From the NCBI GenBank assembly GCA_026418625.1, contig JAOABA010000051.1, positions 62,001 to 126,000 on the forward strand: a stretch of DNA of 64,000 nucleotides, read 5' to 3'. Positions 2,367 through 53,376 of this stretch are shown in pieces. Numbering within the stretch: position 1 is the stretch's first letter; each line of letters opens with the position of its first letter. The DNA comes from Candidatus Kapaibacterium sp. (GTDB lineage: Bacteria > Bacteroidota > Ignavibacteria > Kapaibacteriales > UBA2268). The notes below the pieces were generated by a model. The model was given only the letters and a program-made list of their open reading frames with translations. It searched no databases and was not told the DNA's origin. The translations under genes were made by a program, and so were the position numbers.

Positions 2367-3910
2367 TCAGGTTGAATATAATGGCAACCACGGCTCACTC
2401 TTGCTTCAATGGTGGCAGCATTGACAGCAATTGCTGTTTGAACGCCATTTCTTAATTCAATTATATCTCTTGTCATCTTAGCTTTTTGATAAAATTGCTC
2501 AATTTCTGATTGAAGGTGGCGTAATGTTGTTCTTGCTCTGAGAAGCCTTTGTCTGGTTCTGATTAATCCAACATAATTCCACATAGTATTCTTTATTGTC
2601 GTCCAATCCTGAACTATTAGTGCAGGGTCAATAACCTCATTTTCCTCTTTCCAAGGAAAGATTTCAGGAAAGTAGTAATCTTCTTCGTGAAAATCAGCTG
2701 CATCATTCCCGGCTAAGTAACCCCATACAACTGCTTCAAGTAATGAAGTCGAGGCAAGTCTGTTGGCTCCATGAACCCCTGTGCAGGAAACCTCTCCAAC
2801 AGCATAAAGCCTTCTTAATGATGTTCTTCCCCTCAAACTTACACCGACTCCACCGCAAGAATAGTGAGCAGCAGGAACAACCGGAATTGGTTCAGTAGTT
2901 ATGTCCACTCCGTTGTTTTTACAATGCTCATAAATCGTGGGGAATCTGTCTTTAATCCACCCCGCTTCCTTGAATGATATATCGAGATAAACGCAGGGAT
3001 GGCTTGTTTCGAGCATAACCTGATGAATACTTCTTGAAACAACATCTCTCGGAGCAAGTTCTGCAAGCTCGTGGAATCTTTCCATAAACCTTCTTCCTTT
3101 TTTGTCAAGAAGGATACCTCCCTCACCTCTAACGGATTCAGAAATAAGGAAGCTATCACCAGCCCCGTAAAATGTAGTTGGGTGAAATTGTATATATTCC
3201 AAATTGAAACATCTTGCTCCAGCCCTCCAAGCAAGAGCAATTCCATCGCCAGTTGCTTCCGGTGGATTTGTAGTATGAGCATAAATCTGTCCAAGCCCTC
3301 CAGTTGCTAATATTGTCTTACAAGCATATATTGGAAATACTTTCCCCTTTTTATTATTAAGAACTAAAGCTCCAAAGCAGGCAGGTTTTTCATATATATC
3401 AAGCGAATTTGTAGAATGATGTGAAAGAGTCAGCAAATCCACAACAGTATGGTCAGTCATTATGTCAATATTGGAATAGTTATCCAGTGCTTTTATCAAT
3501 GTTTTATGAATTGATTCTCCAGTTCGGTCCTTTGAATGAATGATTCTTGGAACTGAATGAGCCCCTTCGGCAGTTAAATCGAGTTCATTATTTACATCTC
3601 TATCGAAATCTACCGAAAATTTATCAAGCAATATATCTTTCACAAGTCTGGGTCCTAAATCGCATAATAAATTAACTGCATATTCCCAACAATGACCGTC
3701 GCCGGCTTCCATTATGTCCCTTTTCAATTCTTCGCTTGAGTCATTTATTCCTTTGTAAATAATTCCACCCTGTGCATAGGGTGTGTTACCACTTAAAAGG
3801 GACTCGGTTTTTGATAATAATGTAACGTGTTTTCCTCGTTCAGCGGCAGTAATTGCTGAAATAACACCTGCCAAACCCGAACCTATAACTAAGATATCTG
3901 TTTTAACCAT
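2363..3910 (-). CDS. nadB: L-aspartate oxidase
   Basis: This FAD enzyme oxidises L-aspartate to iminoaspartate, the first step of de novo NAD synthesis; quinolinate synthase (NadA) would use the product but is not in the window. The N-terminus has the dinucleotide fold motif VIGSGLAGV. The substrate and FAD regions of the succinate dehydrogenase/fumarate reductase flavoprotein family are visible: TTNPPEATGDGIA, EYIQFHPT, AAHYSCGGVGV and GEVSCTGVHGANRLAS. A helical C-terminal domain of ~100 residues follows. At 515 residues the length fits NadB. It stands alone between convergent and divergent neighbours. Aspartate oxidase is favoured over fumarate reductase because no iron-sulphur or membrane subunit is adjacent. 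Confidence 0.93.
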   Translation of the reverse strand: MVKTDILVIGSGLAGVISAITAAERGKHVTLLSKTESLLSGNTPYAQGGIIYKGINDSSEELKRDIMEAGDGHCWEYAVNLLCDLGPRLVKDILLDKFSVDFDRDVNNELDLTAEGAHSVPRIIHSKDRTGESIHKTLIKALDNYSNIDIMTDHTVVDLLTLSHHSTNSLDIYEKPACFGALVLNNKKGKVFPIYACKTILATGGLGQIYAHTTNPPEATGDGIALAWRAGARCFNLEYIQFHPTTFYGAGDSFLISESVRGEGGILLDKKGRRFMERFHELAELAPRDVVSRSIHQVMLETSHPCVYLDISFKEAGWIKDRFPTIYEHCKNNGVDITTEPIPVVPAAHYSCGGVGVSLRGRTSLRRLYAVGEVSCTGVHGANRLASTSLLEAVVWGYLAGNDAADFHEEDYYFPEIFPWKEENEVIDPALIVQDWTTIKNTMWNYVGLIRTRQRLLRARTTLRHLQSEIEQFYQKAKMTRDIIELRNGVQTAIAVNAATIEARVSRGCHYIQPD

Positions 3911-4030
3911 AACTATTTTCGATTGATTTAACCAATTATTAATTAACGATATATTTCAAATATAATTAAGTTAATCAGAAAATTTTAATCTTTTTAAAGT
4001 GAAAACTTTCAAAATAACGTTTTATAATCT

Positions 4031-4672
4031 ATGCAGTCATTAAAAAATAATATTAACATAATTGATTTTATCAAAGCAAAGCTGAATAGTGAACTGCCGG
4101 GTAGAGAAGCACAAATCAAGATGGCTCCTTCGATTAACGGGCAATTAATTAGGGGCTTTGATGCACCGAAAAATGCTAAGCAGAGTAGTGTTTTGCTACT
4201 TCTTTATCCGTCAAAAGATGAATCTGATTTAAACATTTTATTTACTCTTAGAAGTAATAATCTCAACAGCCACAGTGGGCAAATAAGCTTTCCGGGTGGA
4301 CGAAAAGAAAAGAACGAAACACTTGTCGAAACTGCATTAAGGGAAACAAGAGAAGAAATTGGAATTTCAACAGATGATATTCAAATTCTTGGAAAGCTTT
4401 CAACTCTTTACGTCCCTCCTTCAAATGCCATTATTTATCCATTTGTAGGTTTTTTGCCTTATCCACCCGAAACTAAACCTAACCAAAGTGAAGTTTTTGA
4501 GGTGTTTTCAGTTTCCCTTAAATATTTTTTAGAGAACAAATTTGAAAAACAGGTTTGGAATTATAATGGGCATTTAATGGACGTTCCTCTTTGGAATGTG
4601 CATAACTCAACACCGCTATGGGGTGCAACTGCAATGATTTTAATGGAATTTTTAACTTTATTCGAAAGATAA
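4031..4672 (+). CDS. NUDIX hydrolase, CoA diphosphatase type
   Basis: The Nudix box is complete at residues ~90-112: GGRKEK, then ETALRETREEIGI with the REXXEE core. The segment just before it (SGQISFPGG) is typical of the CoA pyrophosphatase subgroup (YeaB/NudL/PCD1), which cleaves CoA to 4'-phosphopantetheine and 3',5'-ADP with Mg2+ or Mn2+. The length (213 aa) fits. It is divergent from nadB, with ~120 bases between the starts. Substrate assignment comes from family resemblance only; a general nucleotide-sugar diphosphatase is the alternative. Confidence 0.85.
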   Translation: MQSLKNNINIIDFIKAKLNSELPGREAQIKMAPSINGQLIRGFDAPKNAKQSSVLLLLYPSKDESDLNILFTLRSNNLNSHSGQISFPGGRKEKNETLVETALRETREEIGISTDDIQILGKLSTLYVPPSNAIIYPFVGFLPYPPETKPNQSEVFEVFSVSLKYFLENKFEKQVWNYNGHLMDVPLWNVHNSTPLWGATAMILMEFLTLFER

Positions 4673-23503: not shown

Positions 23504-25441
23504 TTACCTTGATGAATTATTTGAATTATAAGGATTATTCAATTCGTTAAATAAATTTAAAATTTCATCCATTGTTTTGCTACCAATATTTCCCTTTGTA
23601 TGTTCACGGACAGATAGAGTATTAGTATCAACTTCTTTTTGACCGATTATCAATGCAAAAGGAATTTTTTTCTGCTCAGATTCAGCAATTTTTCTGTTTA
23701 TTTTTTCGCTTCTTAAATCAATTTCTACTCTAAAGCCTGCATTATCAAGAATAGAATAAATTTCATTTGCATATGAATGCTGATTTTCTCCAATAGGTAA
23801 TATATTTGCTTGAACAGGTGCAAGCCAGAATGGAAAATTACCAGCAAAATGCTCTATCAAAATTGAAAGAAATCTTTCCAAAGAGCCGAAAGGAGCCCTG
23901 TGGATTATGACAGGTCTATGCTTTTGATTATCTTCACCGGTATATTCGAGTTGGAAACGTTCAGGCATAACATAATCAACTTGAACAGTTCCTAATTGCC
24001 AAGACCGTCCAAGAGCATCTTTAACATTAAAATCAATTTTAGGTCCATAAAAAGAGGCTTCGCCTTTACCAATAAAATAGTCAAGACCCATCTCGTCGGC
24101 TACTTCCTGAATAACTTTTTCTGCATGATTCCAGCTTTCTTCAGAACCAACATATTTAGATGAATCTTCGTCACGGAAAGATAATCTGATTTTGACGGTC
24201 ATTCCAAATGTATTGAATACTAACTGTGTTAGTTCGACTGTTTGTTTAATTTCGTCTTTTAATTGTTCCTCAGTGCAATACATATGAGCGTCATCTTGAG
24301 TAAATCCTCTGACTCTTGTTAATCCGTTTAACTCTCCAGATTGCTCGTAACGATAAACGGTTCCGAATTCAGCTAAACGTAATGGCAAGTCCCTATAACT
24401 TCGTGGTTTTGAAGCATAAATCTGATGGTGATGAGGACAATTCATAGGTTTTAGTAAATATTCTTCCTCTTCAATTTTTATTGGTGCAAACATTGAATCT
24501 GAATAATACGGATAATGACCCGATGTTTTGTATAGATTAATGTTTCCAATATGAGGAGTGATAACCTCAACATAACCTCTTTTCTTTAATTCGGCTGAGA
24601 TGAAAGCTTCGAGTTTTCTTCTTATAATTGTTCCTTTTGGCAACCAAATAGGCAGACCACCACCGACATTTGGAGAGATCATAAATAGTTCTAATTCCCT
24701 GCCAAGCTTGCGATGATCTCTTTTTTTTGCTTCTTCGAGCATAAAAAGATAATCATCCAGCATTTTTTTCTTTGGAAATGTTATTCCATAAACCCGTGTC
24801 ATCATATTTCTGCTCGAATCACCACGCCAATAAGCTCCAGCTACCGTAAGCAGCTTAACATATTTTATATGGTTGGTGTTTGGAATATGTGTTCCACGGC
24901 AGAGATCAATGAAATTTCCTTGTTTGTAAAATGTGATTTCACCGTCATTTAGCCCATCAATAAGTTCAAGTTTATATTGATCCCCAATCTTAGAGAAATG
25001 TTCAATAGCTTCTTGTTTTGAAATTTCAATTCTTTCGTATTCAGCATTTCTTTTAGCTAATTCAAGCATTTTAGCTTCGATTTCCGGAAGATCTTCGGCA
25101 GAGAGCTTTTTCCCATCAGGGAGATCAACGTCATAATAAAAACCGTTTTCAATTGCTGGACCAATACCGAATTTGACACCCGGATATAATTCTTGAATTG
25201 CTTCAGCCATAAGGTGCGCTGAAGAGTGCCAATATATTTCTTTACCTCGTGGGTCATCAAAAGTAACTATTTCGACTGAAGCATCCTGATTTATTTTTCT
25301 TGATAAATCATATTTTTCACCATTTACAAATATTCCGAGAGCTTCATTTGCTAATCTTTCTGAAATAGAGCGTGCAATTTCGAAACCAGTTGTTCCCTCG
25401 GGATATTCTCTGACGTTACCATCCGGAAATGTAATCTTCAT
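23504..25441 (-). CDS. thrS: Threonyl-tRNA synthetase
   Basis: At 645 aa, all domains are visible in order. An N-terminal TGS domain (1-60) precedes the editing domain, with the zinc/hydrolytic pair in YWHSSAHLMAEA and CRGTHIPNTNHI. The class II catalytic core follows, with LLKPMNCPHHHQIY, RLAEFGTVYRYEQSGE and PVIIHRAPFGSLERF, then a C-terminal anticodon domain (VQANILPIG to EHTKGNIG). Many genomes place infC-rpmI-rplT after thrS; here repeats follow instead. cysS lies 69 bases upstream on the same strand. Confidence 0.97.
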   Translation of the reverse strand: MKITFPDGNVREYPEGTTGFEIARSISERLANEALGIFVNGEKYDLSRKINQDASVEIVTFDDPRGKEIYWHSSAHLMAEAIQELYPGVKFGIGPAIENGFYYDVDLPDGKKLSAEDLPEIEAKMLELAKRNAEYERIEISKQEAIEHFSKIGDQYKLELIDGLNDGEITFYKQGNFIDLCRGTHIPNTNHIKYVKLLTVAGAYWRGDSSRNMMTRVYGITFPKKKMLDDYLFMLEEAKKRDHRKLGRELELFMISPNVGGGLPIWLPKGTIIRRKLEAFISAELKKRGYVEVITPHIGNINLYKTSGHYPYYSDSMFAPIKIEEEEYLLKPMNCPHHHQIYASKPRSYRDLPLRLAEFGTVYRYEQSGELNGLTRVRGFTQDDAHMYCTEEQLKDEIKQTVELTQLVFNTFGMTVKIRLSFRDEDSSKYVGSEESWNHAEKVIQEVADEMGLDYFIGKGEASFYGPKIDFNVKDALGRSWQLGTVQVDYVMPERFQLEYTGEDNQKHRPVIIHRAPFGSLERFLSILIEHFAGNFPFWLAPVQANILPIGENQHSYANEIYSILDNAGFRVEIDLRSEKINRKIAESEQKKIPFALIIGQKEVDTNTLSVREHTKGNIGSKTMDEILNLFNELNNPYNSNNSSR

Positions 25442-25510: not shown

Positions 25511-26974
25511 CTATTCACCTATTTTATTAATTTCATACCCATCTTTAGTGTCTTTTATGACATAACCTGAATCAAAAATCTCTTTTCTAATCTTATCAGC
25601 CAAGTCAAATTTTTTTTCCTTTTTAAGCTGAAATCTCTCTTCTGCTAACTTAAGTATATTATTAGGTATCAGGATTTTTTCCTCTGGTTTTTTATCTAAT
25701 TGCCAAACATCAAAGATTTTGTTTAGTTCAAGAAAGAAAGCTTTTAATTTTTTCTTAGATGAAAGTTTTATTGATTTTGGATCTGTATTGTTAATAAAAG
25801 TGAAAATATGGGCAAGTGCTTTTGGTGTATGCAAATCATTAGCGAGTTCAGAGAAAACATTATGCTTTAATTTATCCTCATCAACTTTGTCAGAACCGTC
25901 AATATCTTCATCAAATAAAGAATAAATAAAATCCTGAATTCTTAATCTTGCTTTTCGTGCTGCAGCAATCCCATTAAAAGTAAAGTTATAAACAGAGCCA
26001 TAATGAGCAGAAAGCATAGCGAAACGAATATCTAAAGGGTCAATACCTTTTTTTTCAAGATCCCTAAGCGTAAAAAAGTTACCTAAAGATTTACTCATTT
26101 TCTGTCCCTCAACTTCAAGAAATTCATTATGGCACCATATTGCAGTGGGATCAATGCCGAATGCGGCTTTGCTTTGGGCTATCTCGTCTTCGTGATGAGG
26201 GAATTTTAAATCAATACCACCAGTGTGAATATCAAAAGGAAGTCCAAGAATTTCCTTTTCCATAACAGAGCATTCTATATGCCATCCGGGTCTGCCATCA
26301 CAACGTTGACCTTCTATTTCAAATTCCCAATATGGTTCACCGGGCTTTTTAGCTTTCCAGAGAGCAAAATCAGCTGCTTGTTCTTTTTCATATTGGTCAG
26401 AATCAACTCTATCGCCAGCCCTAAAATTTTCGAAATCTATTTTGAATAATTTGCCATAAATATCAATTTTTCTCCATTCAGCAACGTTAAAATAAATTGA
26501 ACCAGCTGAATAATAAGCTAAACCTCTATTATAAATCTTTTTAATAGTGTCCTGAATTTGTAGAATATAATCTGTTGCCTTCGGAATTTTGTAGAAGTGT
26601 TTAAGGTTAATTTTTAGTTTTGTTATATCATCAAAAAATTCTTTTTCATAAAAAGATGTAAATTTGAGGAGGTTATCCAAGGGATCGTTGCTTTGTTCGC
26701 CCATCTCTTTTCTCCATTCTTTACTTCCAATAGCAGAGTCCCTTATTGTTTTGTCATCAATATTTGTTATGTTCATAACCCAATGAACTTTAAAACCCCC
26801 AACAACTCTTAATACTCTTTGAAGTAAGTCGGCAAAAAGAAATGATCGCATATTTCCTATATGGGCATAATTATAAACTGTTGGACCACAAGAATACATT
26901 CTTATGGTGCTGCCATCAAGTGGAACTACGTGTGATAATTTTCCGTTTAAAGAATTATGTAAATAAATTTCCAT
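25511..26974 (-). CDS. cysS: Cysteinyl-tRNA synthetase
   Basis: This class I synthetase has 487 aa. The HIGH-type motif is YNYAHIGNMRSFLFAD and the KMSKS loop is EGQKMSKSLGNFFT. The zinc-site region is visible with MYSCGPTVYNY, RPGWHIECSVM and GIDLKFPHHEDEIAQS. A helical anticodon-binding tail follows. It is upstream of thrS on the same strand, and the two may share a transcript. The start at 26974 fits the family. Confidence 0.97.
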   Translation of the reverse strand: MEIYLHNSLNGKLSHVVPLDGSTIRMYSCGPTVYNYAHIGNMRSFLFADLLQRVLRVVGGFKVHWVMNITNIDDKTIRDSAIGSKEWRKEMGEQSNDPLDNLLKFTSFYEKEFFDDITKLKINLKHFYKIPKATDYILQIQDTIKKIYNRGLAYYSAGSIYFNVAEWRKIDIYGKLFKIDFENFRAGDRVDSDQYEKEQAADFALWKAKKPGEPYWEFEIEGQRCDGRPGWHIECSVMEKEILGLPFDIHTGGIDLKFPHHEDEIAQSKAAFGIDPTAIWCHNEFLEVEGQKMSKSLGNFFTLRDLEKKGIDPLDIRFAMLSAHYGSVYNFTFNGIAAARKARLRIQDFIYSLFDEDIDGSDKVDEDKLKHNVFSELANDLHTPKALAHIFTFINNTDPKSIKLSSKKKLKAFFLELNKIFDVWQLDKKPEEKILIPNNILKLAEERFQLKKEKKFDLADKIRKEIFDSGYVIKDTKDGYEINKIGE

Positions 26975-27093: not shown

Positions 27094-27684
27094 ATGATGA
27101 AAAATTTAGATGCTGAATTTATAATTGGAGCAACGAAAGTTTCACAATTTCCTCAATTAAATAAGCCGGAAGTAGCATTTACGGGCAGGTCAAATGTCGG
27201 AAAATCATCGTTACTTAATAGTATCGTCTTGAGAAAAAATTTAGCTAAAACGAGTGCTACTCCGGGAAAAACCCAGCAAATAAATTTTTATGACATTGAA
27301 AATAAGTGGATCTTTACTGATTTACCCGGTTTTGGTTATGCGGAGGTTCCAAAAACACTTAAAGAGAGTTGGATTAAGTTGGTATTTGAGTATTTTCAAA
27401 TTCGGGAAAATTTAAGGCTTGTCTGCCTTCTTGTTGATAGTAGGCACGATCCGACAAAAATTGATATATCGTTAATGGAATGGTTTGAAAACAACAATAA
27501 AAAATTTTTAGTGATTTTAACAAAATGCGATAAAATCAGTCAAAAACTTATTGAGGAACGAAAAAAACAAGTAGAGCATTTACTTCAATTTTGTAAGAAT
27601 AATATTGAAGTTCTTCCTTATTCATCCAAAACAAATATGGGAAGAAATGAGTTACTGGCAATTATCAAAAAGATTACTGTTTAA
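27094..27684 (+). CDS. engB: Ribosome biogenesis GTPase EngB/YsxC
   Basis: This small TRAFAC GTPase (196 aa) acts in 50S subunit assembly. All G motifs are seen: P-loop GRSNVGKSSLLNS, switch I with TSATPGKTQQINFY, G3 DLPGFGYAEVP, and G4 LTKCDK. The frame begins with two ATGs in a row; either may be used. It is divergent from cysS and 12 bases upstream of gmhA, suggesting cotranscription. Confidence 0.95.
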   Translation: MMKNLDAEFIIGATKVSQFPQLNKPEVAFTGRSNVGKSSLLNSIVLRKNLAKTSATPGKTQQINFYDIENKWIFTDLPGFGYAEVPKTLKESWIKLVFEYFQIRENLRLVCLLVDSRHDPTKIDISLMEWFENNNKKFLVILTKCDKISQKLIEERKKQVEHLLQFCKNNIEVLPYSSKTNMGRNELLAIIKKITV

Positions 27685-27696
27685 TTAGGGGGATTA

Positions 27697-28281
27697 ATGA
27701 AAAATTTTGAATTAAAAATTAAGGACTCGATAACTTCAAGTATTGAAACCAAACAATCACTTTTAAAAGAATGTTCAGATGCAATATTAGAAACAGGATT
27801 ATTATTATCGGAATGCATAAAGCAGGGTGGTAAAATCCTCTTTTGCGGTAATGGAGGTAGTGCCGCTGATAGCCAACATCTTGCTGCTGAGCTGGTTATT
27901 CGATATAGAAGTAGTTTCAATAGACCTGCTATCCCGGGAATTGCTTTGACTGTTGATCCGTCAATTATGACAGCCGGTGGAAATGATATCGGGTTCGAAA
28001 ACGTTTTTGCAAGGGGGGTAGAAGCATACGGAAAGACAGGAGATGCACTTGTTGCAATATCAACAAGCGGTAATTCCGAAAATGTATTGAGGGCTTCAAA
28101 AAAAGCAAAAGAATTGGGTTTGAAAGTTATAGGGCTACTTGGTTGTGGTGGAGGTAAAATACTTGAAATTTGTGACTCTGCAGTAGTTGTTCCATCGGAT
28201 GTTACAGCAAGAATACAGGAATCTCATATATTGATAGGGCATATCTGGTGTGAAATTATAGAGGAATATAATTTTAGTTAA
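27697..28281 (+). CDS. gmhA: Sedoheptulose-7-phosphate isomerase
   Basis: This SIS-domain enzyme makes D-glycero-D-manno-heptose 7-phosphate, the first step to the heptose of the lipopolysaccharide core, and acts in the cytoplasm as a tetramer. Motifs: LFCGNGGSAADSQHLAAELV, the GGNDIGFENVFARGVEAYG loop, STSGNSENVLRA, and ESHILIGHIWCEIIE near the end. The length is 194 aa. It has a clear ribosome site (AGGGGG) 7 bases before the ATG. No other heptose gene is nearby. Confidence 0.93.
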   Translation: MKNFELKIKDSITSSIETKQSLLKECSDAILETGLLLSECIKQGGKILFCGNGGSAADSQHLAAELVIRYRSSFNRPAIPGIALTVDPSIMTAGGNDIGFENVFARGVEAYGKTGDALVAISTSGNSENVLRASKKAKELGLKVIGLLGCGGGKILEICDSAVVVPSDVTARIQESHILIGHIWCEIIEEYNFS

Positions 28282-28344: not shown

Positions 28345-28417
28345 GCCACTTTAGCTCAGCTGGTAGAGCAGCTGATTTGTAATCAGCAGGTCGTTGGTTC
28401 GAGTCCGACAAGTGGCT
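28345..28417 (+). tRNA. tRNA-Thr (anticodon UGU)
   Basis: Full cloverleaf: acceptor GCCACTT with AAGTGGC, D arm TAGCTCAGCTGGTAGAGCA, anticodon stem GCTGA/TCAGC with loop TTTGTAA (TGT), T arm GTTGG-TTCGAGT-CCGAC. The discriminator is U and CCA is not encoded. It sits between gmhA and the methyltransferase, a usual landing place for mobile DNA. No direct repeat of the tRNA 3' end is visible downstream within the restriction-modification segment. Confidence 0.96.
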
Positions 28418-28569
28418 CAAAAAAGTTAAAAAGAGACGATCTTTATTCATCAAAAAACTTTTATGAATGTTAAACCGCAAAGTTATTAATTCATTTTATC
28501 AAATTTGAATTACTTTTTATTTCCAATTCATTATATTTTACATTAAAACTATCAAAGCTTTAAAGAAAA

Positions 28570-29760
28570 ATGGAAATATTTCACCAACAAATTCAAAAAA
28601 TCAAAGATAAGTCAAAGAATCAAAATCATCTAAAATACTCAGATAAAATAAATCTCGGTGCTTTTTATACACCTAAAGAATATGTAAATATTGTCTGGAG
28701 TTTTATTAAGCCTTTTTTAAATGATGATAGTGTTGTTTTAGATAGTTCTTGTGGTTACGGTAACTTTTTTGATACCGAGGTGAATTGCAAAAAAATTGGA
28801 AATGATATTGACGTAATAGCAATTTCTCAAGCCAAAAAAAATTTTCAGGAATTGATAACTTTCAACAAAAATGCTTTATTTAATGTAAATCGTGATATGT
28901 TCAACATATCAAAGAATGATAAACTAATAATCATAGGAAATCCTCCTTATAATGATATAACATCAATCATTAGAAACCAAATAAAAACTAATAATTTTAG
29001 TATAGATGCGGACATAAAAACAAGAGATTATGGTTTATCATTTTTGTTATCTTATACTAAACTTGAACCTGAAATAATATGTGTTTTACATCCATTATCT
29101 TACTTAGTAAAAAAAACCAACTTTGATTTACTAAGAAAATTTACATATATGTATAAACTTATTGACGGAATAATTTTTGATAGTGCAACTTTTAAAGAAA
29201 CTTCAAAGGGCATTTCTTTTCCAATAATTATTGCCTTGTATAAAAGAGAAAGTTTGGGTATGCAATTTAATTATATATATAATTATAGATTCAAAACAAT
29301 TGAGAATAAAACTTTTTCATTAAGAGAATTCGATTTTATTACCAACTATATTAATAAATACCCATCAAAAGGTGTTAATCCAAAAGATAATGATATATTC
29401 TTTTGGACTATGCGAGATATAAATGCTTTAAAAAGAAATAAAACATTTGTTAATGATTTTAATGATAATACTATAATTATTGACAAAAGGAGGCTGGATT
29501 ATTATATATATATTGATGTATTTAAACAATTTAGCCATTATGTCCCATATTATTTTGGTAATCTTGATGTTTTTATTAACGATGAATCATTTCAAGCAAA
29601 TAAGGATTATTTTATTTTTGAATGTTTAACAAGACATTCTTTTCTAAATGACTATATAAAACACAACAAGAGTTCAACTTTAAAAGAAGCAAATGAGAAA
29701 ATTACTAATTATTTTAAGACTTTATTAGGAGAGCATTTTGTCCATCCAACTGATAAATGA
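28570..29760 (+). CDS. DNA adenine-N6 methyltransferase (gamma-class, type II)
   Basis: At 396 aa it starts with the N-terminal GAFYTPKEYVN segment typical of gamma-class N6-adenine methyltransferases. The SAM-binding motif I follows (VVLDSSCGYGNFFD, about residues 55-68), and the catalytic motif IV GNPPYND is at about residues 123-129. The C-terminal ~200 residues would be the target recognition region. It lies just after tRNA-Thr, with a partner gene overlapping its end by 23 bases. Base composition looks more AT-rich than neighbours (many ATA, AAT codons), a sign of transfer. The target sequence is unknown. Confidence 0.88.
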   Translation: MEIFHQQIQKIKDKSKNQNHLKYSDKINLGAFYTPKEYVNIVWSFIKPFLNDDSVVLDSSCGYGNFFDTEVNCKKIGNDIDVIAISQAKKNFQELITFNKNALFNVNRDMFNISKNDKLIIIGNPPYNDITSIIRNQIKTNNFSIDADIKTRDYGLSFLLSYTKLEPEIICVLHPLSYLVKKTNFDLLRKFTYMYKLIDGIIFDSATFKETSKGISFPIIIALYKRESLGMQFNYIYNYRFKTIENKTFSLREFDFITNYINKYPSKGVNPKDNDIFFWTMRDINALKRNKTFVNDFNDNTIIIDKRRLDYYIYIDVFKQFSHYVPYYFGNLDVFINDESFQANKDYFIFECLTRHSFLNDYIKHNKSSTLKEANEKITNYFKTLLGEHFVHPTDK

Positions 29761-30514
29761 GAATAGTAAAACCATAAAAGTGAAAATTCCTTTAACAACA
29801 TCAACTGGGAAAATACGAATTAAACAAAGGGATAATATCTATGGTTATGGCCAACCTTTTCCAAGCAAATCTATGAATTTTAATCAAAAAAACTATGTAG
29901 AATGGCAAATTAGCTATGATATTGAAGAAAATAATGAAAAAATTAATTTTTCTGTTTTAAAACAGTATAAATTTATAGCTCACAATGGGAAAAATAAATT
30001 ATTATTTGAATTAAGTGAATATCTTTATCACTTAATAAACTTTGGATTAATATCTCTCTTACAAATAAAAAAATTAAAAAATTTTATTAATAATTTAACT
30101 GAAAATGAATTGTTATCAAACCATCCACATTGTGAGATTAAAAGAACTCACCCTAAGATTCAAAAAATTAATGATTTAAATTTTGAAATACTTAAAGTTG
30201 AATATCCACAATTAATATACAGATTTAAAAACTATTAAGTCATCGCAGAAATAATTATTAAGGAAAAGCAAAAAGCGGTTGGGGTACAACCTATGCTTTT
30301 TTTCTGTTTCCCAATAACCGAATTAATTGCAGATGTACCACTATTGGGTAGAACAGCTAAAACAAATGAATATTCGTATTTCGAGATAAACAATAACAAC
30401 TCATTTGTCTTCTTTGAAATTACAAAAATTTTTGGGATGTTAAGCCCAAACCACAGGTTTGATATTTTGGAGATATTAAATTTACTCTTACAAATCTTCG
30501 AAAATAAAACTTAA
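29738..30514 (+). pseudogene. Probable restriction endonuclease gene interrupted by an in-frame TAA
   Basis: The first open part (29738-30238, 166 codons) starts with TTG behind an AGGAG site, overlapping the methyltransferase end. A single TAA at 30236-30238 ends it. The same frame then stays open for 91 more codons, through VIAEIIIKEKQK and an apparent ATG at 30293, to the stop at 30512-30514. The second part (LLGRTAKTNEYSYFEI, FVFFEITKIFG) reads as normal protein. A full product would be ~258 aa, a usual size for a type II endonuclease. I do not recognise the family and see no certain PD-(D/E)XK motif; the role is inferred from pairing with the methyltransferase. It may be a true pseudogene or a sequencing or assembly error. 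Confidence 0.55.
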
Positions 30515-50869: not shown

Positions 50870-52018
50870 ATGATTTATTTGAATAATGCGGCAACAAGTT
50901 TTCCTAAACCCCAATCTGTTATTAATGCTGTTACTGAATGTTTATCTCGTCCTTTACTACATTCATCACGAACCGGTTTCGAGCGTGAGAAAGATGATTA
51001 TATCTATCTTTGTCGTGAAAATCTCGCAAAAATTCTTAATGTAAAAGACCCTCTTCATATTGTTTTTTCGTCTGGAAGCACTGAATCTTTGAACTTAGCA
51101 ATTAAGGGATTGAATCTCAAGGGTTCGCACGTTGTTACAACTGCCATTGAGCATAATTCAGTTCTACGTCCTTTAAAAACGATGGAACTATATGGTGAGA
51201 TCTCTATCTCTATTGTTATGTGCGATGAGAAGGGATATATCGAACCAGAATGGATTGGTCAGGCAATGAATTCTAATACAAAAGCGGTTGTTGTCAATCA
51301 TTGCTCAAATGTTACCGGAACCATTCTCGATATAAAAGAAATAGCCAAAGTTGTCCATAAAAATGGAGCTGTTTTGATTGTTGATGCTTCTCAATCAGCA
51401 GGCTCAGTTCCTATTGACTTTGATGGCTGGGATATTGATTTATTGGCTTTCACAGGACACAAATCACTTTATGGAATTCAAGGGATTGGAGGGCTATGTA
51501 TAAAGGAAGGAATAGAACTAAAGCCTCTTAAAGTTGGCGGGACTGGCATTTTGAGCGAAGTCCTTCTTCAACCTGACGGTCTTCCAATTTATTATGAAGC
51601 GGGAACACCAAATACACCCGGTATAATATCATTATGGGCTGGAACCGAATTCATTCTAAATGAAGGTTTCGAAAAAATTCATAATCACAAAAGTAAATTA
51701 GTAAAAAAGATGATCAAAGAGCTAAGTGAAGTTCCTGAGGTAAAGATTTATTATGACCCCGAACACTCGAGCTATTCAAATTTCTGTTTTAATATTGAAG
51801 GAATGGTTCCCGAAGAAGTAGGATATATGCTTGACAGCTCTTTTGATATAATGGTAAGGACAGGACTCCATTGTGCTCCACTTGTTCTTGAACCACTTGA
51901 TGTTTTTCCTTGGGGAACTGTTCGAGCAAGCCCTTCATACTTTACTACTGAAGAAGAAGTCGATACTTTTATTAATGCAATAAAGGATATTGTAAATTTT
52001 GTTAAAAAGAAAAAATAA
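50870..52018 (+). CDS. Class V aminotransferase, cysteine desulfurase-like
   Basis: This 382-aa PLP enzyme has MIYLNNAATSFPKP at the start, the substrate/PLP residues in TTAIEHNSVLRPL, the PLP aspartate in VLIVDASQSAGSVP and the Schiff-base lysine in LLAFTGHKSLYG. The desulfurase-type cysteine is in RTGLHCAPLV. It matches the subgroup near the SufS/CsdA desulfurases without SufU, SufE or IscU next to it. It may supply sulphur, or act on another amino acid. Next is a DUF2130 gene 14 bases downstream on the same strand. Confidence 0.88.
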   Translation: MIYLNNAATSFPKPQSVINAVTECLSRPLLHSSRTGFEREKDDYIYLCRENLAKILNVKDPLHIVFSSGSTESLNLAIKGLNLKGSHVVTTAIEHNSVLRPLKTMELYGEISISIVMCDEKGYIEPEWIGQAMNSNTKAVVVNHCSNVTGTILDIKEIAKVVHKNGAVLIVDASQSAGSVPIDFDGWDIDLLAFTGHKSLYGIQGIGGLCIKEGIELKPLKVGGTGILSEVLLQPDGLPIYYEAGTPNTPGIISLWAGTEFILNEGFEKIHNHKSKLVKKMIKELSEVPEVKIYYDPEHSSYSNFCFNIEGMVPEEVGYMLDSSFDIMVRTGLHCAPLVLEPLDVFPWGTVRASPSYFTTEEEVDTFINAIKDIVNFVKKKK

Positions 52019-52032
52019 ATTCAAGATTAATT

Positions 52033-53376
52033 ATGAGTGATGAAATAAAAAATACCATTAAATGCCCAAATTGTGGAACAGTAATAGAAGTCACAAAAGT
52101 TCTTTGGCACGAAATTGAAGAAAAAGTCAGCGACGATTATAGAAAAAAATACTTCGCTGCTATCGAAAAAGAAAGAAAAAAAGTTGAAGAAGAACAAAAA
52201 CAAAAATATGAACAAACTCTTGCTGAATTAAAAAAGACACTAAATTCTAAGGATGAGGAAATCGCTAAGGCTAATAAAAAGGCTGAAGAGCTACTCAAAA
52301 AAGAAGCAGAACTGATTGAGAAAGAAAATCTGATTAATATTACTATTCAAAAAAGATTAGAGGAAGAAAAGTCCAAAATTGCCGAATATGAACAACAAAA
52401 AAATAAATTTATAGTAGAAAATCTGCAAAAAGAGCTTGAAGAACAAGCAAAAAAATTAGAGGAAGCTCAAAAAATTGAACTCGAAGCCAGAAGAAAACAA
52501 AAAGAATTAGAAGATAAAGAAAAAAATCTCGAGCTTGTTGTCGAGCAAAAACTTGCCGAAGAAATGAAAAAAAGAGCTTTGGAAATAGAAGAACGAAAAA
52601 ATCACGAAATGAGCCTTAAAATAAGGCAATACGAAGAAAGAGAGGCAAGTTTGAAGAGAACAATTGAAGAATTAAAGCAAAAATCGGAACAAGGCTCTAT
52701 ACAACTTCAGGGTGAAGCTCAGGAAATTGAATTGGAGGAACTACTCAAAAGAAAATTTATCTTTGATATTATTGAGCCTGTCCCCAAAGGTATGCGAGGT
52801 GCAGACTGCATACAGACTATCAGAAACGATATTGGTCAAGAATGTGGAAAAATAATTTGGGAATCCAAAAGAACCAAAGACTGGCAAAATAATTGGATTG
52901 ATAAATTAAAAAATGATAAGAACGAATCTAATGCCGATGTAGCCGTTATTGTTACTCAAGCTATGCCAAAGGAGATTAAGAATTTTGGTTTTCTTGATGG
53001 AGTTTGGATTACAAGTTTTAACTATGTACCAGAACTTGCGTTTGTTCTTCGCGAATCAATTATTCAGTTTAATATGATAAAGCTGTCTCAAGCAGGTAAA
53101 GATCAAAAAATGGAGTTAATGTATGATTATCTGACAGGGACAGAATTCAAAAATAAGATTCAATCAATTGTCGAAGCCTTTGTTTCTATGAAATCAGAAC
53201 TTGAAAAAGAAAAAGCAGCTATGGCAAAAATCTGGTCAAAAAGGGAGAGGCAAATAGAAATTGTAAGAGACAATACAATTAAAATTTATGGCAGTCTTCA
53301 GGCAATCATCGGCAAACAATTACCCGAAATTAATTATCTTGAATTAAATCCAGTTAATGAAAATAATGATTTTTAA
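52033..53376 (+). CDS. DUF2130 coiled-coil protein
   Basis: The N-terminus has a small zinc-like CPNCGTV motif (IKCPNCGTVIEV). A very charged coiled coil (~35-230, rich in E/K/A) follows, then the conserved DUF2130 domain (~235-400: RGADCIQTI, IIWESKRTKDWQNNWI, ADVAVIVTQAMPKEI). The domain has features of a PD-(D/E)XK nuclease-like fold (E in IIWESKRTK), which is suggestive only. Function is unknown. It is widespread in bacteria as a single gene. Confidence 0.88.
   Translation: MSDEIKNTIKCPNCGTVIEVTKVLWHEIEEKVSDDYRKKYFAAIEKERKKVEEEQKQKYEQTLAELKKTLNSKDEEIAKANKKAEELLKKEAELIEKENLINITIQKRLEEEKSKIAEYEQQKNKFIVENLQKELEEQAKKLEEAQKIELEARRKQKELEDKEKNLELVVEQKLAEEMKKRALEIEERKNHEMSLKIRQYEEREASLKRTIEELKQKSEQGSIQLQGEAQEIELEELLKRKFIFDIIEPVPKGMRGADCIQTIRNDIGQECGKIIWESKRTKDWQNNWIDKLKNDKNESNADVAVIVTQAMPKEIKNFGFLDGVWITSFNYVPELAFVLRESIIQFNMIKLSQAGKDQKMELMYDYLTGTEFKNKIQSIVEAFVSMKSELEKEKAAMAKIWSKRERQIEIVRDNTIKIYGSLQAIIGKQLPEINYLELNPVNENNDF

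Follow-up and report, generated by a model that had tools for sequence, protein, structure and literature searches.

An orphan DNA methylase, left after the recent loss of a base-excising restriction enzyme, is the reading that we favour, with a probability of roughly 85%, for a PabI-family gene pair that follows a tRNA-Thr gene. The two genes span positions 28570-30514 on the forward strand of the window, by which we mean the whole 64-kb stretch of Candidatus Kapaibacterium DNA under analysis. According to this reading, a pair of the bacterial CcoLI/HpyAXII type would have been inserted behind the tRNA gene, with a methyltransferase (M) that is intact and presumably methylates the adenine of GTAC. 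The restriction enzyme (R), when whole, would excise the unmethylated GTAC adenine and nick the abasic site. One nonsense codon would recently have inactivated R, and the toxicity of R may have favoured its loss. We infer the GTAC specificity of the pair, the activity of M and, from the sequence, the lost activity of R. The features of the locus are collected in Table 1, together with related methyltransferases on viral contigs.

Table 1. Features of the M/R locus in the window and M.PabI-type genes on viral contigs
Feature	Positions	Strand	Basis, or identity to the window M
tRNA-Thr (TGT), directly upstream of the M/R pair	28345..28418	+	ARAGORN
M.PabI-type gamma-class adenine DNA methyltransferase, 396 aa, intact, probably now orphan	28570..29760	+	homology, conserved columns, fold
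5' part of PabI-family restriction DNA glycosylase gene, 166 codons	29738..30238	+	matches R.CcoLI
Premature TAA stop within the catalytic domain	30236..30238	+	0/20 full-length relatives stop at this column
3' part of the glycosylase gene, 91 codons and stop	30239..30514	+	PF09522 match alone
Hairpin and T run within the coding sequence, no conserved terminator	30266..30304	+	folding z-scores, relatives
Viral M, L168 (IMGVR_UViG_3300038974_000450)	3001-4185		70%
Viral M, L169	2986-4110		44%
Viral M, L170	2929-3858		52%, cut by contig end

The gene pair and its interrupted frame

The R frame starts with a TTG at 29738, is preceded by AGGAG and shares its first 23 nt with the end of M. The original prediction described a 166-codon frame that ends at a TAA and stays open for 91 more codons of normal-looking protein. 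The ORF coordinates confirm this, with the open run reaching a second TAA at 30512-30514. The chance of such a 91-codon run is about 2e-4 at the local base composition, and the run is genuine protein, as it matches PF09522 on its own (E=6.3e-29). Among the 47 non-nested ORFs of at least 120 aa in the window, four, R included, stay open for more than 60 codons past their stop. Of the three besides R, two run into the next gene in the same frame, as read from the coordinates (25511-26974 then 23504-25441; 27094-27684 then 27697-28281), and the third has a translation that we take to resemble a carboxyltransferase and then a small membrane subunit. As these three are followed by genes or a subunit, R is the sole gene found broken by this test. 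The 3' 91 codons of R are untranslated, save by readthrough or reinitiation.

With its stop read as X, the whole R frame matches PF09522 (R.Pab1) at E=3.3e-38 over residues 134-248, a match that spans the stop at codon 167 and whose 130.9 bits, against a curated cut-off of 25, place the frame in the family. The part before the stop matches PF09522 weakly when taken alone (0.0046, below the cut-off). The best PDB match of the read-through frame is 7CFA, R.CcoLI (E=1.2e-45), and the part before the stop matches the same entry by itself (E=8.3e-20). The read-through protein, modelled with AlphaFold from an alignment that included 17 relatives (mean pLDDT 92.8, pTM 0.88), has the HALFPIPE fold: in Foldseek against the PDB, all 16 chains at E<=0.001 are R.CcoLI or R.PabI. 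The catalytic Tyr60, His239 and Asp242 are present (Tyr52, His222 and Asp225 of R.CcoLI, with the numbering offset derived by hand from the alignment), each of them in 20 of 20 relatives. Tyr60, Asp61, Asn83 and the lyase Lys87 (R.CcoLI Tyr52, Asp53, Asn67 and Lys71) are kept before the stop, and beyond it lie the base-reading Gln178, Gln184 and Met186 as well as the catalytic His239 and Asp242. A 166-aa product would retain the active-site Tyr and Lys, with His, Asp and the C-terminal strands and helices gone. Judged by its sequence, and with the frame interrupted by the TAA at codon 167, R is a broken, not a working, member of the PabI-family (HALFPIPE) restriction DNA glycosylases.

Passages of PMC7806768 report that PabI-family enzymes remove adenine from unmethylated GTAC, and that mesophilic members of the family also nick the abasic site (AP-lyase). 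The partner of M, as a member of this family of adenine-excising DNA glycosylases, is therefore not an ordinary nuclease. The earlier description of a nuclease gene with one in-frame stop holds for the stop and for the restriction role and is refined for the nuclease, as PF09522 and 7CFA denote a base-excising glycosylase.

The methyltransferase had been called intact, and it is so, with an open frame that keeps NPPYND and further columns that are invariant among 19 aligned members. Its identity to the M next to R.PabI on a Campylobacter coli plasmid is 47%, and it matches the PADLOC MTase_II model PDLC03275 (E=1.5e-74); a Pfam search of the window M gave no family above the cut-off. The fold of its model (pLDDT 85.6) is predicted to resemble the adenine DNA methyltransferases M.BseCI and CamA. 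This gamma-class M is adjacent to R, upstream and on the same strand. All 22 genome_contigs loci likewise have a relative of M upstream of R, although in one of them, an Elusimicrobia contig (L023, 3142-3455), it is a remnant that has lost a large internal stretch, and the adjacent R gene is truncated after its start by the end of the contig. Additionally, the M and R trees agree in placing the window in one clade with L004-L008.

Among known systems, R.CcoLI and M.CcoLI of Campylobacter coli (7CFA) are of the same family and fold (Foldseek TM 0.88 on target), their catalytic Tyr, His and Asp and lyase Lys align with the window R, and both pairs have the bacterial-type order, with M upstream on the same strand. 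The window R differs from R.CcoLI in being interrupted by a stop, in its identity of about 38% and in the lineage of its host. HpyAXII of Helicobacter pylori is like the window pair in gene order, in decay of R with M kept and in avoidance of GTAC by the host, according to parts of PMC10273834 and PMC4615327, yet the window pair comes from a different lineage of the pair. R.PabI of Pyrococcus abyssi (PDB 2DVY, 3WAZ) shares the fold and family of the window R. The archaeal pairs, as a part of PMC4615327 describes them, are tail-to-tail with a longer M, whereas the window M and R stand in tandem. Another genome of the host's class (G016) carries a more distant R (L002, 1480-2238; 30%) with a poorly related methylase on the opposite strand, a gene order that resembles the archaeal pairs; GTAC is not depleted in that genome (0.86).

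Age of the lesion and other readings of the stop

The stop was compared with 20 full-length relatives of R, namely 18 from the genome_contigs scan (L004-L021), a plasmid copy (L003) and the copy from the same-class genome (L002). None of the 20 stops at the TAA column of the window. At columns conserved in at least 90% of the relatives, the window agrees at 28 of 32 before the stop and at 22 of 24 after it, and its identity to L004 is 59% and 63%, respectively. The lowest p in 12 relative-rate tests on the post-stop part is 0.286, and one of 12 tests on the whole R falls below 0.05 (p=0.033, uncorrected). A stop would result from 38 of the 819 possible single substitutions in the 91 codons and none is present; in simulation, about half of neutral copies acquire a stop by 0.05 substitutions per site. 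The lack of faster divergence after the stop, together with the lack of a further stop, means that the lesion looks recent, or is an assembly error. On the tree, the end branch of the window is 0.63 for R vs 0.33 for M, and in the four nearest relatives the R end branch is 0.63 to 1.33 times that of M. Some relaxation of R before the stop is possible, given this longer branch. A signature of accelerated decay was considered and set aside, since despite the longer branch a single whole-R rate test of the 12 gave p<0.05.

That the TAA arose in sequencing or assembly, with an intact, working PabI-type system behind it, is in our judgement unlikely. It agrees with an R that is otherwise sound, with all catalytic residues present, no second lesion and no post-stop acceleration, and with the depletion of GTAC in the host; the TAA is known from the contig sequence alone. 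However, the difference is of the substitution type and not a homopolymer slip, and substitution errors are rare in consensus assemblies. Decay of R is also frequent in the family, as 3 of 23 judgeable loci, the window included, are broken and 20 are full-length. L023 and L024, where the contig ends inside R, were excluded from this count, and L019 was scored as intact in spite of an aligned start codon other than ATG, GTG or TTG. G342 contains a further, weak R-like match (8.1e-5, below the cut-off, with two stops) that was left out; tblastn gave no match for that stretch at 1e-3. The three broken copies comprise the nonsense codon of the window, a frameshift in Helicobacter equorum (L022) and an internal deletion in a Campylobacterota MAG (L025), and M is open in all three loci. 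In L025, the remnant of R (3501-3730) consists of the first 46 and the last ~34 residues, out of frame, beside an intact M, and GTAC in that genome stands at 0.08 of the expected count. For HpyAXII of H. pylori, a part of PMC10273834 gives R as functional in about 20% of the isolates tested and M in about 90%. The prediction that loss of R with M kept is a common evolutionary end is borne out by L022, L025 and HpyAXII; L023, where it is M that carries the deletion, is damaged the other way round. Helicobacter is already known for decay of R with M kept, and the window adds a case from another branch of bacteria.

A tolerated stop, at which low TAA readthrough or a restart at the ATG at 30293 would yield little active enzyme and limit its toxicity, we consider very unlikely. 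In its favour, the 91 codons beyond the stop match the preceding part of R in conservation, and the ATG lies 54 nt downstream, preceded by a GGGG run. However, recent loss predicts equal conservation too, the stop is shared by none of the 20 relatives, and a restart at 30293 would lose the strand bearing Gln178 and Gln184. TAA is the commonest stop of the window, ending 30 of 47 ORFs; the code is therefore not reassigned, and recoding of TAA was rejected. A split enzyme made of two peptides was also held to be unlikely, since in the model the restart would remove a central strand. Still less probable is that the stop throttles a toxic base-excising enzyme to traces by readthrough, giving a weak GTAC defence at low self-damage; if true, this would explain why conservation after the stop equals that before it.

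The original prediction also described a hairpin with a T run, lying across the join, as either coincidental coding sequence or a terminator. The hairpin exists, but sits about 28 nt downstream of the TAA. It folds at -15.9 kcal/mol (z=-1.84; 10 of 200 shuffles equally good), a shorter segment reaches z=-2.18 (5 of 200), and the terminator scan lists it on both strands. A stem, a loop and a T run are thus present, as a functional terminator behind a gene that naturally ends at the TAA would have them; we give this reading almost no credence. The stem encodes a family-conserved protein segment, KQKAVGVQPMLFF, and the corresponding segments of four close relatives (z of -1.10, -0.42, -2.19 and +0.35) fold weakly in three of four cases. 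No relative of the 20 ends at this point, and the coding run goes on with the catalytic His and Asp. The coding half of the earlier alternative is therefore retained and the terminator dropped. Recent loss of R remains the preferred reading.

Spread of the pair and depletion of GTAC

The R family was found in 2 of 294 genomes of the host's class and in 1 of 54 of its family. By their record labels, relatives of the pair occur in Spirochaetes, Rickettsiales, Aminicenantes, Flavobacteriales, Desulfurobacteriaceae, Fibrobacter, Verrucomicrobia, Elusimicrobia, Cardiobacteriaceae and Campylobacterota, most of them MAGs, where an individual contig may not belong to the organism on the label. The nearest relatives of R are MAGs labelled Spirochaetes, Rickettsiales, Aminicenantes and Flavobacteriales. 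The abstract of a 2023 review places the PabI family in Helicobacteraceae/Campylobacteraceae and a few archaea, and a part of a 2015 paper (PMC4615327) adds Brachyspira, Mycoplasma, Mucispirillum and Caloramator. We recognised no paper on a wider spread of PabI pairs among the open-licence papers searched.

In 367 kb of host genome, GTAC occurs 37 times against 403 expected (0.09), a depletion of about 11-fold. The same genome (the window and 16 stretches, L070-L085) is also depleted of CTAG (0.08), CATG (0.12) and GGCC (0.15), possibly a sign of further restriction systems in this lineage. Since these sites are similarly depleted, the depletion of GTAC alone is unspecific, and the argument rests on the contrast with non-carriers of the same family. 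Among 100 relatives searched, the only other strong match to M is in a genome of the same family (G305, 52%), where GTAC stands at 5 of 92 expected (0.05). This M belongs to another clade than the window M; R was not found in G305, whose contig breaks off inside the 3' end of M. The 18 usable same-family genomes with neither M nor R, after leaving out G265 and G304 (masked sequence only), range from 0.47 to 1.43, with a pooled 605 of 766. That the two carriers should be the lowest of 20 same-family genomes has a probability of 1/190, in small samples.

Carriers of other phyla range from 0.00 to 1.42, and several of them do not avoid GTAC (e.g., 0.84, 0.96, 1.01 and 1.42). With the host and G305 counted, 7 of 18 carriers lie below 0.1 and 12 of 18 below 0.47, a cross-phyla comparison that is uncontrolled for kinship. 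The roughly 11-fold depletion in the host suggests that the system was long active before the loss of R. Two of the five GTAC sites in the window (30284 and 30335) lie in the broken R, both after the stop. These are 2 of the host's 37 sites, vs 0.08 expected there from the genome rate, an excess that was noticed post hoc.

Genomic setting, viral copies and meaning

The tRNA-Thr gene is the likely left edge of an acquired segment. The order of gmhA followed by tRNA-Thr(TGT) recurs in 4 of 19 gmhA loci of relatives, none of the four with a match to M or R, and insertion of the pair is deduced from this order. The 3' end of the tRNA-Thr gene occurs just once in the window, and integration via a repeat of the tRNA end was discarded. 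The right-hand neighbour of the pair, which we take to be PEP-synthase-like, and gmhA have no match in the same-genus genome G294, which thus offers no orthologous empty site. Ku has no match in the host genome, which fits the reported exclusion between PabI and Ku, in one genome only. Elsewhere in the window, a 1-kb stretch (52001-53000) has a strong purine skew (AT skew 0.379, GC skew 0.218) and overlaps the ORF at 52033-53376.

Three viral contigs carry an M.PabI-type M with no R detected, which is weak evidence of the absence of R, as the records may be fragments. The three copies belong to three different M clades, and that of L168 immediately follows a gene for a terminase (phrog_15, E=1.9e-127). 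Relatives of R were found neither in viral contigs (two scans) nor in phage records, and M was not found in phage records. An M without a detected R on viral contigs suggests that phages may carry counter-measures to this defence, and the viral copies are possibly a phage counter-defence against GTAC base excision.

The locus represents an ordinary evolutionary fate of an unusual enzyme, known for the PabI family and met here in a new host lineage. Experimental knowledge of base-excision restriction comes from a handful of systems. The window locus and its relatives extend PabI-type pairs to several phyla that are unnamed in the abstract of the 2023 review, and breakage of R beside a kept M is also seen in those other lineages. 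With M kept, R apparently just lost and GTAC still rare, the host presents a natural contrast that would allow the relaxation of site avoidance to be tracked.
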